Positions 3,868 through 48,348 of a stretch of 64,000 nucleotides of DNA are shown here, one piece after another; the stretch's first letter is position 1, and the number at the start of each line of letters is the position of its first letter. Below the pieces are notes generated by a model that was not told the DNA's origin, searched no databases, and saw only the letters and a list, made by a program, of their open reading frames with translations. A program made the position numbers and the translations under genes. This DNA is from Bacteroides sp. 214. GTDB lineage: Bacteria > Bacteroidota > Bacteroidia > Bacteroidales > Bacteroidaceae. The DNA is taken from contig NZ_QVML01000007.1 in the NCBI RefSeq assembly GCF_010501015.1, positions 69,772-133,771 of the forward strand, written 5' to 3'.

Positions 3868-3967
3868 GCACTTCCCATGAAAAATAGAAGGAATAGTACC
3901 TGTATTTCTAAAAACATACAAACTAATTATCAGGGGAAACCGAATTCATCAATAAGCAATGAAAAAG

Positions 3968-4037
3968 GTCAACCCTATTTATAACTAAGTATAAACCGAG
4001 TCAACCAACTCTATTAATAAGACTGAAAGTAGTCAAC
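3968..4037. repeat. Three GTCAAC words spaced 32 bp
   Basis: GTCAAC begins at 3968, 4000 and 4032. The first two units also share a TAAG at the same internal offset, so the 32-bp register is more than a chance hexamer match, though the third unit is degenerate. Confidence 0.4.
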
Positions 4038-4090
4038 TAAAAACGTTAACATACACTTCACCGATATTTTTCACGTATTGTTATAAATTT

Positions 4091-4178
4091 CTCACCATGT
4101 TGAGAACAAATACTCGACTTGGCGAGAAACTATTCTCAACATGGTGAGTATTTATTCTCATCACGTAGATTTGCTTTG
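4091..4178. repeat. 22-bp periodic dyad array (locus A)
   Basis: CTC triplets begin exactly at 4091, 4113, 4135 and 4157. The first three units each contain a 14-bp dyad of the form CTC-N8-GAG (CTCACCATGTTGAG, CTCGACTTGGCGAG, CTCAACATGGTGAG) followed by an 8-bp A/T-rich spacer. Units one and three are also inverted copies of each other over 15 bp (4091-4105 with 4134-4148). The fourth unit is degenerate. Confidence 0.8.
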
Positions 4179-16045: not shown

Positions 16046-16164
16046 ATAAGCATCCGAAGCGAATACTATAAGCATTTGAAGTGAATACTATAAGCATCCG
16101 AAGTGAATGCTATAAGCATCCGAAGCAAATACTATAAGCATTTGAAATGAGAACTATAAGCATT
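16046..16164. repeat. 22-bp tandem repeat, five units plus a partial (locus C)
   Basis: Units begin with ATAAGCAT at 16046, 16068, 16090, 16112, 16134 and 16156, exactly 22 bp apart. Units vary at a few positions: the middle is CCGAAG or TTGAAG and the end is AATACT, AATGCT or GAACT. The third unit is a dyad, AGCAT-N9-ATGCT. Confidence 0.9.
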
Positions 16165-16170
16165 ATTTTT

Positions 16171-16251
16171 CTGACTGAGTTTTGAACCGCTTCTGACTGA
16201 GTTTTAGACCATTTCTGACTGAGTTTTTGTATGAAACTCAGTCAGTTTTTT
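16171..16251 (+). repeat. CTGACTGAGTTT array ending in a hairpin (locus D)
   Basis: CTGACTGAGTTT starts at 16171, 16193 and 16215, exactly 22 bp apart. The last copy pairs with AAACTCAGTCAG (16234-16245) as a perfect 12-bp stem with a 7-nt loop followed by six T, so it looks like a terminator. The whole element recurs in inverted orientation at 32424-32498. Confidence 0.88.
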
Positions 16252-32226: not shown

Positions 32227-32423
32227 TGTTGTGGATTTTATTGTTGAAGCACGAAAATAACAATTAAATCTAAGAAACTGTTTAATTTTTCCACAGAATG
32301 ATTCATATAGGATGCTTTCGTTTTTTATTTAGCACTCTTTTTGTCTGTTTTTTCTCTTTATTATCTACCTAGTGGGTTAATATACACTTCAAATACAGTT
32401 TTACGAAACAGATCCTTAAAAAA

Positions 32424-32498
32424 CTGACTGAGTTTCATACAAAAACTCAGTCAGAAATGGTTTAAAACTCAGTGAGAAATGAAGCGAAACTCAGTCAG
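32424..32498 (-). repeat. AAACTCAGTCAG array, inverted copy of locus D (locus F)
   Basis: A 31-bp hairpin core at 32424-32454 is the exact reverse complement of 16215-16245. Two further AAACTCAGT(C/G)AG units end at 32476 and 32498, each 22 bp after the previous one. In the minus orientation the element has the same order as locus D. Confidence 0.9.
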
Positions 32499-32570
32499 AA
32501 AAACAACTGCTTAAAGCTCTTATTTCAAATGTTATAAGTATTTTATAGATTCAAGTTAAATAGTATAGCC

Positions 32571-32655
32571 GTGTACTCCAAATACTTGACGCGTCAAGTA
32601 TAAAGAGTACACGCTTCAAGTATAAAGAGTTGACGCGTCAAGTATTTGAGGGTGA
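32571..32655. repeat. 22-bp array with 42-bp palindrome (locus G)
   Basis: TCAAGTAT starts at 32594, 32616 and 32638, exactly 22 bp apart, with CGCTTCAAG or CGCGTCAAG before it. The segment 32571-32612 is a palindrome of 42 bp in which 18 of 21 base pairs match; its centre is TTGACGCGTCAA. The unit GACGCGTC is itself self-complementary. Confidence 0.88.
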
Positions 32656-43497: not shown

Positions 43498-45060
43498 ATG
43501 AATAAAATCATTATGATGAACTTTAAGTTCTTGTTTTTTCTTTTATCTACTTTATTCGTTTTTGCTGCTTGTGAAAAAAAAGAAGATACTCCAGATATTC
43601 CTGAAGAGCCTGTTGAGCAAGTAGAAGGTGCACTCAAAATCTTTAAATTTGAGAAAAAGTATAATCCTCAATTATCAACTGATGTTGAACTAACGATTTA
43701 TAACAATAAAAATATAGCTGGGCATCTTAATGTTACTGTTGATATGAAAGCCCTTATTCCAACTTTTGATGTTGAAGATGGTCAACTATATTGTAACGAC
43801 GTATTACTGAAAAGTGGACAAAGTACATGTGATTTTTCTTCTATTGTATCTATAGTCTTATTAGAAGATGATGGTGATAAAGTAGATTATAAAGTAATGT
43901 TGTTACCCTACACAGGATTACCTGTAGTAACTATTTGTACAGAAAATGAACGTTTCCCACAAGATAAAGTGTCGTGGGTACCAACTCGTATAAAAATAGA
44001 TGGAATGGGTGTATTCCCTGATTACACCGATTCGGTTGGCATACGTGGTAGAGGTAATGTAACTTGGGGATTACCCAAGCAAGCCTTCAATATGAAATTA
44101 ACAAACAAGGATGCTTTATTAAATATGCCAAATCAAAAAAGATGGTGTTTTTTGGCAAACTGGAGAGATCGAACGCTACTTAGAAATGATGTAGCGTTCC
44201 ACATTGGACAGCAAACGGCCCTTGCATGGACACCTAGAAGCCAGTTTGTCGAGGTGATTTTTAATGGGGTACACATGGGAAACTATCAACTTACCGAACA
44301 AGTACGTATTGATAAAAATCGGGTCAACATAAAAGAAATGAAAAGTGAACATACAGATGCTATTAAAATAACTGGAGGGTATTTATTGGAAATTGATAGC
44401 TATTGGGATGAAGAAAATAAATTTAAGTCTGCAACCTACAATTTACCCTTCAATATCAAAAATCCTGATGCAGATGTGTTGGTTCCTGTACAAAAAGAGT
44501 ATATTGAAAATTACATTAATAACATAGAGGATAAATTATCGAAAAATGAATTTGCAGCAGCCTACAATTATTTGGATATGAATTCTTGTGTCGATTATTG
44601 GATTGTTCAGGCATTGACTGGAAATACGGAAATAGTTAATCCATTAAGTGTTTACTGTTACAAAGAAAGAAGTGGAAAGTTATTTATGGGACCTCTTTGG
44701 GATTTTGATAAATCTTTTTCTTCGGTTGAAGCTGCTTATAATGGAAAGACAACTCTGCACTATACTTCATGGTGGTATAATGACCTGTTTAAGGATACAA
44801 CATTTAAAACAAAAGTGAAGAATCGTTTCAATGAACTTTTGCCAAAATTAAAAGATGTGCCACAATACATTCAAGTAAAAGCTAATTATCTTTCGAATTC
44901 GGAAAGATTGAATTGGCAAAAGTGGCAGATTGATACGACTATTCTTGATAGCACCAATGGGGATGAAACTATTGACAACTATCAAGAAGCAATAAATAGA
45001 ATGATTTCTATTTACAATGGTAGACTTGAATTACTGAAGGGCGAGATAGAGAAATTCTAA
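43498..45060 (+). CDS. CotH kinase-family lipoprotein
   Basis: The 520-residue protein has a lipoprotein signal ending FVFAAC and a short acidic linker, then a beta domain (residues 45-150) and a CotH kinase-like domain (about 160-500). The domain shows RIRGRGNVTWGLPKQAFNMKL-type entry sequence, DRTLLRNDVAFHIG, GNYQLTEQVRIDKNRV and the metal-binding WDFDKSF. CotH proteins are atypical protein kinases known from Bacillus spore coats; in Bacteroidota they are surface or periplasmic proteins. A second, larger CotH gene lies 280 bp downstream on the other strand, so the two may act on the same target. Confidence 0.88.
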   Translation: MNKIIMMNFKFLFFLLSTLFVFAACEKKEDTPDIPEEPVEQVEGALKIFKFEKKYNPQLSTDVELTIYNNKNIAGHLNVTVDMKALIPTFDVEDGQLYCNDVLLKSGQSTCDFSSIVSIVLLEDDGDKVDYKVMLLPYTGLPVVTICTENERFPQDKVSWVPTRIKIDGMGVFPDYTDSVGIRGRGNVTWGLPKQAFNMKLTNKDALLNMPNQKRWCFLANWRDRTLLRNDVAFHIGQQTALAWTPRSQFVEVIFNGVHMGNYQLTEQVRIDKNRVNIKEMKSEHTDAIKITGGYLLEIDSYWDEENKFKSATYNLPFNIKNPDADVLVPVQKEYIENYINNIEDKLSKNEFAAAYNYLDMNSCVDYWIVQALTGNTEIVNPLSVYCYKERSGKLFMGPLWDFDKSFSSVEAAYNGKTTLHYTSWWYNDLFKDTTFKTKVKNRFNELLPKLKDVPQYIQVKANYLSNSERLNWQKWQIDTTILDSTNGDETIDNYQEAINRMISIYNGRLELLKGEIEKF

Positions 45061-45092: not shown

Positions 45093-45127
45093 GAGGCTGT
45101 CTTACAATGATAAGATGGCCTCATTTT
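45093..45127 (+). terminator. Terminator of the CotH lipoprotein gene
   Basis: GAGGCTGTCTTA (45093-45104) pairs with TAAGATGGCCTC (45111-45122) with wobble pairs, followed by ATTTTT. Confidence 0.8.
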
Positions 45128-45197
45128 TGCGTACAGATAACCACGTATAAGCTCTTCAGAAACACATGGATGCCCAGCAGATAGACACGCGTAGGTT

Positions 45198-45259
45198 GTG
45201 CCAACGCGGTGGCACTGTCGTGCCACCGTTGATGCACAGTAGTGCCAATGCACTGGCAA
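45198..45259. repeat. 22-bp dyad array GTGCCA-N6-TGGCAC (locus H)
   Basis: Units start at 45198, 45220 and 45242, exactly 22 bp apart. Each is an 18-bp dyad, GTGCCA-N6-TGGCAC in the first, with one or two changes in the others (ATGCAC, TGGCAA), separated by 4-bp spacers. The inner six bases differ between units. It lies between the terminators of two convergent CotH genes. Confidence 0.88.
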
Positions 45260-45339: not shown

Positions 45340-48300
45340 CTATTTTATAAATTTATATATATCCCGCTTAGCATTTCCTTCCAGTAACAACACATAGAGC
45401 CCAGTAGCATATTTTGATATATTTATACTGTTATGTCCTGTCGATAATTTTACCTGTTCAATAATGTGTCCATTGAGCGAATATACTGTAGCAACTCTCT
45501 CTTCTGTAGAGTTTATATTGAGTAGTGTGCGGTTATCACTTGTATATACAGTCGGTTTGTTCCCTTTTGTAGAAATTTCGCTAATGTCAGTTACTAACGA
45601 ATAGTCTTCCACATAATCAACGATGTTATACGAAGAATGTTGGTTTGCTTTCTTGAAAGTAGGATAATCAAAGTACACCAATGTCTCTGAACCATCAGGA
45701 TAACGACCATGAGAGGTGTATTCTGTATGTACAGGGTAGGTTACTTCATCTATAATCTCAATTCCGCCATCTTCTTTATCCTTAGATAGATACAATGTAC
45801 CTCCTGTTTTTGGCAATTTGAAGTTAGTGTGCATAACTCCACGCTCTGGTGCTTTACTACACCACAGTATAGCATATCCATGAGCTGGAACAATGGTAGA
45901 TCCATTATCATCACTTGGTATTTGCCATAGTTTAAGGTTCGACTCAACATTAGAGAAGTAGTAACCTGCCAAATCAATGGATTCGTCAGAACCATTATAG
46001 ATCTCAACCCAATCTTCGTATTTGAATGCGTTATCAACAAATATAGCATTAGATGCGCTGATTTCATTGATGAACAGGCCGCTTCTTCTCACTAAGTCTG
46101 CCGGTTCATAAACAGCAACTATTCTTGTTGCTTCGGTTAATGATATTTTTAGCTCCGTGGCTGCTTCTGTTTTAGAGAGTTGGTCTCCATTGTAGATTTC
46201 CCAACGTGCGAATTTTTTCCAACTATCATAAAGTGGGGCAGTAAGGGTTAATTCTCTGCCTTCGAAGTATTTACCTTCATAAGGAAGGATAGGAATACGT
46301 TCGTTGTTGAATGAAATAGATAGATATTCGTGATTGGAAGTAATAGTTAGTTCTGTTGGTGCTCCTAGATTGAAATGAGTTTGGAGATTATCAAATGCAA
46401 CTTCGTTTAATCCAGTTGCGTTGTTAATCATACTAGCAATTTCACCTTCTGGATTTGATTTGAGACCAGACCATCTGTCATAAGAGTATGGATACTCAGC
46501 TTTAATAACAGACCAAGCGTTATACATTTTTGTTGAGATTCTATTAGGGGTATATATAGAAGCTGCGGAAATACATAGAACATCTATATAGCGATTTTTG
46601 AAGGTTTCATTTTTTAGCAAATTTACAATAAGCTTAGTGGATAACCGTGAAGAGGAGCTGTTTAGTAGCTCTTTCAGTTTATCTCCTGTCATTGATTTTA
46701 TTGAATTATCTAAATCATTTAATATCCACCTCCACTTCTCGTCGCTTCTTTTACACAAGAACATTTTTTGATTATTATTTCCCCAATCTTCATTATTTAA
46801 TAGTATTTCAGTAGCCATGTAGTATAAAAAATTATCAACATCAATCATTTGACTAATAGTATTATATGCTTCCTGATTAGATAAATCATTAGTCTCATAA
46901 AAAGATTGAAGCTTGTTATATTCAACGGTATTGCCGCTTTTAGTATATGGAACCCAATTGTGGTCAATTAAGTCTATTTCATTTTTATTACAACCGTAAT
47001 TTGAATAAATATTGTCATCATTACTACGCTCCCTAATGTTGTATAACCCCCAGTATTTCCCATTTATATATACAACTGTCGGCAAATAGGCTTGATATGC
47101 CAATGGAGTTACATTTGCTAAACTCTGGAGAACTGCATCTTTTAAATAACATAGTCCTATATATTGCTGGCCACCTTGTCTTAGCAATATACTCTTAAAT
47201 CTTCTTCCCGTTTTGTCTTTAAAGAAATCAAAGTCCATCCTTTTTGAACCGTATTTACTTGTTGCTTTAACCTTAAAAGCTTTTTGTTCATGATTTTTAG
47301 AGGCATTTCCACTTATTTCATATCCAACAGGACGACTAATATTTATAGTCCCATCTTCATTAATTAATTCAAAATATCCGTATCGCGTCCAATCTCTATT
47401 ATAATTGGCTATAATCCCCCCAACACCTGATATCCCTTTTTTCCCGATACAATATATCCCAATAGTGTCATTATAAAGATATGCTGTGTCAATCGCCATA
47501 AATACAACAGGAAGATCTGGTTTTCTTTCGTTAATCATATACGTAGCTGAAATAGTTAATCCCTCTAGATAATCTTCATGAAAAGCTTTGGCTCTTAATG
47601 TTGTTGTTTTCTCAATTACTATTGGTTGAGTATATAAATGTCTACTTTCGTCAGGATTTGTACTATCAAGTGTATAGTATATTTTAGCACCTAAAGTAGC
47701 ACAAGAGAGTGTTATTTCTACTTTGTCTGAATAGAATCCACTCTTGGTAGAAATGATAGGTGTTTCAACAGGAAAGCTTGCACTTCCAGCTAAATTATTG
47801 CTTGAGTTAAGCGTTGTTTTCTTGAGGTATGCCCATTCTCCACTACCATCAATAATTCTACCATAACTTACATCGGTATACTGCTTAGGATAAAAAACTT
47901 CATCTAAACGCACTCCAAGGTTATTAGCTATTGAAATGTATCCTCCATCAGAGTCTAAATCCATAGGTTCTGCTTTTGAATCTTCCATTTCTATGTCAAA
48001 CCAATAACTTACATAACTTTTTGGTGGAATGGGTCTACTGTTATATATACGATATTTTAAGGGCGTGTTTGCATCGTCTGAAAAATATATTTGCTCTCCT
48101 TTAAATTCAGAATCAGTGGGATTGTAAAGTTCAATCCATCCTGCGTAATCAAAATATTGTAATTGGGCGGTGTCGGGATAGAAAACACCATCTTTTGCTT
48201 TTCTTGGAAAAATGGTTAGATCCTTACTTACATTGCATAAAGAGATCTCGTTAATAAAAAGGTCTCCTGGCTTTTGTGCAAAAATATCTTGCGATTGCAA

Positions 48301-48348
48301 CAAGAAAGTTAAGCAACAACTTCCGATTAATAGTATTTTTTTTCTCAT
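45340..48348 (-). CDS. Large multidomain CotH kinase protein with lamin-tail domains
   Basis: The 1002-residue secreted protein has a signal peptide (LLIGSCCLTFLLQSQDIFAQ). Domains in order are a lamin-tail domain (FINEISLC through WIELYNPTDS, about 30-170), a chitobiase-type beta domain (KIYYTLDSTNPDESRHLY, about 195-275), a CotH kinase region (about 300-640, with NIRERSNDDNIYSNYGCN and WILNDLDNS), a second lamin-tail domain from residue about 756 (WVEIYNGSDESIDLAGYYFSN) and a C-terminal strand-rich tail (ATVYSLNGHII, ATGLYVLLLEG) that resembles a type A sorting signal. It closes a four-gene operon with the VTC, DUF4956 and DUF2490 genes. Confidence 0.88.
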   Translation of the reverse strand: MRKKILLIGSCCLTFLLQSQDIFAQKPGDLFINEISLCNVSKDLTIFPRKAKDGVFYPDTAQLQYFDYAGWIELYNPTDSEFKGEQIYFSDDANTPLKYRIYNSRPIPPKSYVSYWFDIEMEDSKAEPMDLDSDGGYISIANNLGVRLDEVFYPKQYTDVSYGRIIDGSGEWAYLKKTTLNSSNNLAGSASFPVETPIISTKSGFYSDKVEITLSCATLGAKIYYTLDSTNPDESRHLYTQPIVIEKTTTLRAKAFHEDYLEGLTISATYMINERKPDLPVVFMAIDTAYLYNDTIGIYCIGKKGISGVGGIIANYNRDWTRYGYFELINEDGTINISRPVGYEISGNASKNHEQKAFKVKATSKYGSKRMDFDFFKDKTGRRFKSILLRQGGQQYIGLCYLKDAVLQSLANVTPLAYQAYLPTVVYINGKYWGLYNIRERSNDDNIYSNYGCNKNEIDLIDHNWVPYTKSGNTVEYNKLQSFYETNDLSNQEAYNTISQMIDVDNFLYYMATEILLNNEDWGNNNQKMFLCKRSDEKWRWILNDLDNSIKSMTGDKLKELLNSSSSRLSTKLIVNLLKNETFKNRYIDVLCISAASIYTPNRISTKMYNAWSVIKAEYPYSYDRWSGLKSNPEGEIASMINNATGLNEVAFDNLQTHFNLGAPTELTITSNHEYLSISFNNERIPILPYEGKYFEGRELTLTAPLYDSWKKFARWEIYNGDQLSKTEAATELKISLTEATRIVAVYEPADLVRRSGLFINEISASNAIFVDNAFKYEDWVEIYNGSDESIDLAGYYFSNVESNLKLWQIPSDDNGSTIVPAHGYAILWCSKAPERGVMHTNFKLPKTGGTLYLSKDKEDGGIEIIDEVTYPVHTEYTSHGRYPDGSETLVYFDYPTFKKANQHSSYNIVDYVEDYSLVTDISEISTKGNKPTVYTSDNRTLLNINSTEERVATVYSLNGHIIEQVKLSTGHNSINISKYATGLYVLLLEGNAKRDIYKFIK

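Follow-up and report, generated by a model that had tools for sequence, protein, structure and literature searches.

A 22-bp-lattice array between convergent CotH genes of Bacteroides sp. 214 as a probable decayed copy of a REP/BIME-like palindromic element

We analyzed a window of 64,000 nucleotides (the whole stretch of DNA considered here) from Bacteroides sp. 214 and found that a three-unit palindromic array at 45198-45259 is probably, in a judgment held with moderate confidence, a decayed copy of a dispersed element resembling REP/BIME sequences. In its full form, this element comprises four 18-bp dyads over 84 bp and lies at gene 3' ends, and it would retain under pairing constraint the ability to fold into a long hairpin. 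The related arrays in this and other genomes are likewise best read as palindromic elements of the REP/BIME kind that are constrained by pairing.

The window array consists of three units placed on an exact 22-bp lattice, with starts at 45198, 45220, and 45242, and is preceded on the forward strand by TAGGTT (45192-45197), the left border of the dispersed element. By direct reading, unit 1 (45198-45215) is the perfect dyad GTGCCA-ACGCGG-TGGCAC. Unit 2 (45220-45237; GTGCCA-CCGTTG-ATGCAC) is irregular, with two mismatches in its right half ATGCAC, and unit 3 (45242-45259) ends in TGGCAA, which has one mismatch and is the right half of canonical unit 4. The original prediction described three GTGCCA-N6-TGGCAC dyads; the starts and the lattice were exact, but only unit 1 is a perfect dyad, and four of the six half-sites are exact. 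The array had also been called the cleanest of its kind, which does not hold for pairing. When the window was scanned for three-unit lattices with at least 16 of 18 pairs, the window array failed and only the array at 4089 passed, with one match in one of ten random controls. A search of the window for GTGCCA-N6-TGGCAC with up to two mismatches gave 4 matches against 1.13 expected, a weak excess that 3 of 100 shuffles reached. Genome-wide, with up to one mismatch, 43 matches per strand were obtained versus 2 for the reversed control, a strong excess. Between 44000 and 46000, Rfam gave six weak matches, every one under the gathering score. A DNA search of 119 genomes for an orthologous copy of the gap found a match in the own genome only.

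We next compared the array with others in the same genome. Eighteen own-genome arrays were read, and 14 of them, aligned in one orientation (the other four being L002, L012, L028, and L031), share 84 bp consisting of four 18-bp dyads on the 22-bp lattice. The borders are sharp: similarity stops within ~6 bp to the left and 3 bp to the right of the array, with TARGTT on the left in 12 of the 14 copies, as counted from the flanks, and AAA on the right in 10 (counts by hand). The irregular right half of unit 2, ATGCAC, was present in 13 of the 14 copies including that of the window (L003 is the exception), which indicates that whole elements were copied. Compared with the canonical copy L005 from which 22 bp had been removed, the window copy showed a single mismatch; without the deletion, there were 4 mismatches against the first 62 bp and 18 against the last 62 bp. 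These results fit a shortened derivative of the 84-bp four-dyad element, and the most plausible reading of unit 3 is that an exact 22-bp deletion joined canonical units 3 and 4. Exactly four units were counted in 53 of 73 arrays, and the spacers between dyads were mostly AACT, AACC, GACA, and AAGT. Across the 14 copies, heterozygosity was lowest in half-sites (0.056), compared with 0.186 for cores and 0.196 for spacers; these values are slightly inflated by inclusion of the window copy in its unshifted register. At the element borders, which are themselves uncertain, there was no excess of target-site duplications (mean best match, 4.14 versus 3.88 for shuffled partners; standard deviation, 0.26). 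In 2 of the 14 copies (L008 and L039), a AACCTACC right border matches GGTAGGTT, a possible MITE-type terminal inverted repeat. Four arrays of Bacteroides faecis (L087, L094, L098, and L113) have longer common flanks, as if placed inside a larger repeat, and by eye they differ from one another mostly in cores and spacers.

The neighbors of the window array are two convergent CotH genes, as had been predicted, both with PF08757. The left gene (43498-45060, + strand) encodes a CotH kinase protein of 520 amino acids, and the right gene (45340-48348, - strand) encodes a protein of 1002 amino acids with CHB_HEX_C_1, Fn3_assoc, and LTD domains and a sub-cutoff Por secretion tail. Each is followed by an intrinsic-terminator-like hairpin with a T run, at 45093-45122 (+ strand) and 45319-45283 (- strand), respectively, in agreement with the earlier placement of the array between two terminators. 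On the basis of these predicted terminators, the array would lie outside both transcripts. The two hairpins, of the GAGGCTGTCTCA/TGAGATGGCCTC type, are part of a sequence with further copies in the genome, among them those on C1, C4, C11, and C74.

Arrays of this kind are mostly located downstream of genes. Neighbors were called with a simple ORF caller, and 16 of the 73 arrays were omitted as unresolved (at a locus edge or with an ORF across the array). Among the 57 arrays with both neighbors resolved, 31 occupied convergent gaps, 21 tandem gaps, and 5 divergent gaps, so that 52 of 57 were in a convergent or tandem position. The 185 background gaps of the named 8-kb loci comprised 27 convergent, 129 tandem, and 29 divergent gaps. 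Convergent gaps were thus enriched (31/57 versus 27/185, p 6e-9), also when compared with gaps of at least 100 bp (13/65, p 1e-4). In the tandem gaps, the array was closer to the 3' end of the upstream gene in 20 of 21 cases.

Furthermore, we examined which parts of the units are conserved between orthologous gaps. At two other gaps, 5 of 96 half-site columns varied, compared with 15 of 48 core columns and 6 of 24 spacer columns; the Fisher p value (2.6e-5) is a guide only because the species rows share ancestry. These rows (G012, G009, and G021 for gap A; G009, G083, G012, and G115 for gap B) were hand-picked and hand-registered from alignments in which four units fit one register, and L122, L124, L125, L127, and L133 were excluded from gap A and L117, L156, L157, L158, and L159 from gap B. 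The result supports selection on the half-sites. Selection on half-sites and copying with a variable core had been offered as alternative origins of the window pattern; the half-sites indeed vary far less than the cores, and dispersed copying was found as well. Within 219 distinct GTGCCA units, each with six pairs, half-site changes gave 128 broken pairs, 28 wobble pairs, and 32 other Watson-Crick pairs (hand sums). Half-site changes are thus mostly uncompensated within the unit, indicating that sequence counts alongside pairing. This and the conserved half-sites with variable cores are what would be expected if the dyads served a sequence-specific dimeric DNA-binding protein (a nucleoid, roadblock, or regulatory protein) as an operator-like array, with successive dimers bound on one helix face at 22 bp. 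The rigid lattice also suits such a protein, since among periods from 16 to 30 only 22 reaches this score beside the insertion sequence (IS) ends described below. We nevertheless regard this explanation as rather unlikely. It does not predict the complementarity between the cores of distant units, the same geometry recurs with unrelated half-sites, at times in the same gap, and the strict pattern is patchy, being found in 8 of 37 genomes of the genus, own included.

The core complementarity was evaluated in four-unit GTGCCA arrays of other species. Near-duplicates (up to two core differences) were removed, and cores were scored as complementary when at least five of six positions matched. Reverse-complementary cores in units 1-3, 2-4, or 1-4 were found in 23 of 45 arrays, compared with 5.5 (maximum, 14) in a position-matched null, although some of these 45 are mutually orthologous and their independence is incomplete. 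By unit pair, complementarity was observed for units 2-4 in 12 arrays (null 2.1, maximum 8), for units 1-4 in 11 (null 2.4, maximum 9), and for units 1-3 in 5 (null 1.3, maximum 6), versus 0, 0, and 1 for the adjacent pairs; in the other 22 arrays, no core pair at distance two or three reached five of six. TTCTCA arrays from the own and other genomes also showed distant complementarity (10/17; null 3.1, maximum 9), with adjacent-unit and self complementarity raised too. Among the 11 GTTTCM arrays, complementary cores were not significantly in excess. Among the own-genome copies, which have a recent common ancestry, complementarity was slightly raised at distance two (p 0.022) and not at distance three. 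Covariation was seen between orthologs at gap A, where CCGTGT/ACACGG in G009 corresponds to CCTTGT/ACAAGG in G021; G012 has CCGTGT/ACAGGG, one mismatch. The earlier view that the inner bases are free and that a bound protein alone suffices therefore finds no support, the cores of unit i and unit i+2 or i+3 being reverse-complementary well above position-matched chance.

A purely mutational origin of the complementarity was also considered. Template switching during replication of a quasi-palindrome would copy one core from its partner, and the apparent conservation of the half-sites would follow from the capacity of any unit to serve as template for any other. In favor of this process, mismatches in near-complementary cores are mostly of the transition type (39 to 29, versus 1:2 expected), and the window copy has the core ACGCGG where 10 of 14 copies have ACGCGT, a difference that perfects a hairpin centered on the first spacer. 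The tightest hairpins would come from adjacent units, but these show no excess complementarity in GTGCCA arrays, though they do in TTCTCA arrays, and the fixed 22-bp geometry across types is left unexplained. As a full account, template switching seems unlikely to us, but it may be the source of part of the core matching. Both template switching and a bound protein can operate together with the pairing-constrained element that we prefer, and the confidences assigned to these readings overlap. The arm-core-arm layout, the matched cores of distant units, and the depletion of self-complementary cores in GTGCCA and GTTTCM arrays would also suit candidate recombinase sites, in which inverted arms flank a 6-bp crossover core that partner sites share in inverted orientation. 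Since core self-complementarity is instead raised in TTCTCA arrays, we consider recombinase sites highly improbable.

Next, the arrays were folded. With the better strand taken for each, 71 of 73 arrays exceeded the stability of every one of their 60 dinucleotide shuffles (median z, -6.6 in the own genome and -6.8 in others). Five strands were folded singly: the intact arrays L005, L117, and L209 each gave a single long hairpin in which unit i pairs with unit i+2 (z from -7.2 to -8.9), and the two strands of the window copy folded weakly (z of -2.2 and -3.2), as expected because part of an arm has been lost. In 21 arrays from tandem gaps, the sense strand folded better in 10 and the antisense strand in 11 (p 0.52, at low power); this equality gives no pointer to RNA rather than DNA. 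Judged from the sequences, the cores tend to match across units in a way that looks like one long hairpin and not like a row of independent protein sites.

These results suggest how the pairing-constrained element could work. Where unit i matches unit i+2 or i+3, core included, as in about half of the intact arrays, a single strand could form one long hairpin, with the unit or units in between as its head. The hairpin would be the entity that is maintained, and its half-sites would additionally be kept by something that recognizes their sequence. The intact form resides at gene 3' ends, with a preference for convergent gaps. It might act at transcript ends as a 3'-end barrier or bidirectional stop, and it would have spread passively, as a repeat that is not autonomous. 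Should the pairing constraint prove real, the bases that vary between conserved half-sites could not be taken as free of constraint, and the arrays would become candidates for bidirectional structures at transcript ends in major gut bacteria.

Among described elements, REP, BIME, and REPIN sequences come close to these arrays. REP/BIME sequences carry a GTAG or CGTC tag at one unit end and have an associated Y1 (RAYT) transposase. REPs are described as short dispersed extragenic palindromes located downstream of genes and in convergent or unidirectional gaps, with larger hairpins possible (Di Nocera et al. 2013, PMC3733652), and as targets of IS elements (PMC1525189). The present arrays are likewise short palindromic extragenic repeats in many dispersed copies, downstream of genes in convergent or tandem gaps. 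By contrast, they have a fixed 22-bp lattice, usually four units, and core pairing two or three units apart. By eye, they show no constant GTAG or CGTC tag: 5 of the 14 own copies (L001, L004, L014, L016, and L039) have GTAG in their left border, three bases from the dyad, and 9 lack it. They also differ in that no Y1 (RAYT) transposase is tied to them in the own genome. A RAYT origin was considered and rejected, since the two PF01797 (Y1) matches of the own genome each sit among different palindromes. At L046 and L047, Y1 (RAYT-like) transposase genes each lie near palindromic repeat families of their own, that of L047 having an 8-bp period. A second comparison is offered by Porphyromonas gingivalis, a member of the Bacteroidales. 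The BrickBuilt MITE of this species comprises intergenic tandem 23-nt units (1 to 22.8 of them, with leader, tail, and GAGACC-type ends) with predicted long stem loops; one strain has 19 copies, many of them close to terminators, and there are IS links. Its authors report default BLAST matches confined to P. gingivalis, and homologues in P. gulae (PMC4596501). The present arrays are similar in being intergenic repeats of Bacteroidales, with tandem short units (22 versus 23 nt), predicted long hairpins, nearby terminators, and IS links, and differ in the 22-bp lattice, the mostly four units, and other borders, with no GAGACCTTTGCA-type inverted ends in the flanks examined.

Of 61 genomes, comprising the own one and relatives, 8 contained the strict 28-base pattern, and the reversed control gave none. 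All 8 belong to the genus of the own genome; the others were G001, G004, G009, G012, G021, G022, and G030. G001 contains the Bacteroides faecis array stretch L117 at 100%, and G069, also of this genus, has IS-end matches whose contig numbers and positions are those of Bacteroides sp. 224, in line with a placement of the window genome in Bacteroides. Two exact dyads were found in 40 stretches of the species collection, whose titles were all Bacteroides, Parabacteroides, or Tannerellaceae, and one stretch among viral contigs contained the 28-base pattern. Among the matches listed in a search of open-licence papers by title and abstract opening, there was no account of these Bacteroides arrays.

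The same 22-bp lattice occurs with other half-sites, including TTCTCA and GTTTCM. TTCTCA lattice arrays were detected in 25 of 157 genomes of the genus, with no match to the reversed control among the rows listed. Gap A contains a TTCTCA array in G110 and G135 and a GTGCCA array in G009, G012, G021, G068, G077, G083, G106, and G115, and among the matches listed, a second gap has GTGCCA in L059 and TTCTCA in L263. GTTTCA and GTTCCT arrays 413-459 bp gaps away around locus B were excluded from these same-gap counts. A switch of half-sites with the cores kept, hinted at by CTGCGA common to L127 and L128, is not put forward here, as the cores of L059 and L263 mismatch by eye. The central 4-mers of GTGCCA and TTCTCA cores had a cosine of 0.65, compared with 0.38 (maximum, 0.52) in a column-shuffled null; shared genomes and mutational bias could contribute to this likeness. 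We tentatively propose, at rather less than even probability, a Bacteroides superfamily of hairpin elements defined by the geometry of the 22-bp lattice. Its half-site types (GTGCCA, TTCTCA, and GTTTCM) would be interchangeable, sharing part of their core vocabulary and swapping in the same gap between species, and one IS3-family lineage would choose them by architecture and not by sequence.

Several arrays adjoin a block of sequence identified as the right end of an IS3-family element ~1.7 kb long. In L233, orfB matches the IS3-type transposase NF033516 above the cut-off (E 1.6e-66) and contains Pfam rve domains, and orfA gives a weak match to NF033516 below it. By eye, a 3-bp repeat is present at both junctions of L233 (AAC) and L236 (CTT), and none is clear in L234. 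We scored 41 distinct right-end flanks, drawn from all genomes retrieved and including related copies; 31 of them outscored every one of 100 shuffles for the 22-bp lattice, and 23 scored at least 15/18. No other period from 16 to 30 reached 15/18 in these flanks, nor did any of 17 interior control stretches. The 10 flanks that failed against their own shuffles include, by eye, some with repeats of other geometry and others without. In three IS copies with both ends, the left flanks scored 8, 9, and 9 and the right flanks 14 each. In Bacteroides sp. 224, each of the 13 IS right ends abuts an array, GTGCCA in seven cases and TTCTCA in six; by eye, 2 to 34 bp separate the IS end from the first half-site in the GTGCCA cases. 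This regularity might suggest that the arrays are a by-product of the adjacent IS. An IS-end match was obtained in 15 of 158 genomes, and the seven other genomes with strict GTGCCA arrays are not among these 15 (in the rows listed, G001, G009, G022, and G030 gave no match), although distant IS relatives could be missed with the 171-base end used as query. Nor is there conservation in the stretch that separates the IS end from the array. An origin of the arrays as IS by-products is accordingly very improbable in our estimation, and from the comparison of genomes the arrays seem able to occur without the IS. Such targeting has parallels, in that the IS3-family elements IS1397, ISKpn1, and ISPsy8 target REPs, ISPsy8 inserting at one position inside a REP, according to Tobes and Pareja 2006 (PMC1525189). 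The present element is similar in that an IS3-family transposase is found at palindromic repeats; it differs from ISPsy8 in lying beside the array, with its right end facing it, next to several unrelated half-site types, and so resembles the type 2 association of that paper, near or adjacent with the REP unbroken. If the IS does follow a geometry common to unrelated sequences, this would be an unusual and directly testable rule of target choice.

The window holds further repeats of this kind. A TTCTCA array on the 22-bp lattice (4089-4172; L184) has a degenerate fourth unit, and the cores of its units 1 and 3, CCATGT/ACATGG, are fully complementary. A remnant of the right end of the IS3-family element (3914-4055, + strand) lies 33 bp from it, and the stretch 3914-4172 is a better example of this architecture than the array at 45198. 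At 16046-16163, 22-bp direct repeats (ATAAGCATCCGAAGCGAATACT) adjoin an 89-nt block (16163-16251), an inverted copy of which (90%) lies at 32418-32506. A further 22-bp array, with the palindrome TTGACGCGTCAA, is located at 32557-32648, and the same motif is found beside a GTGCCA array in L036.
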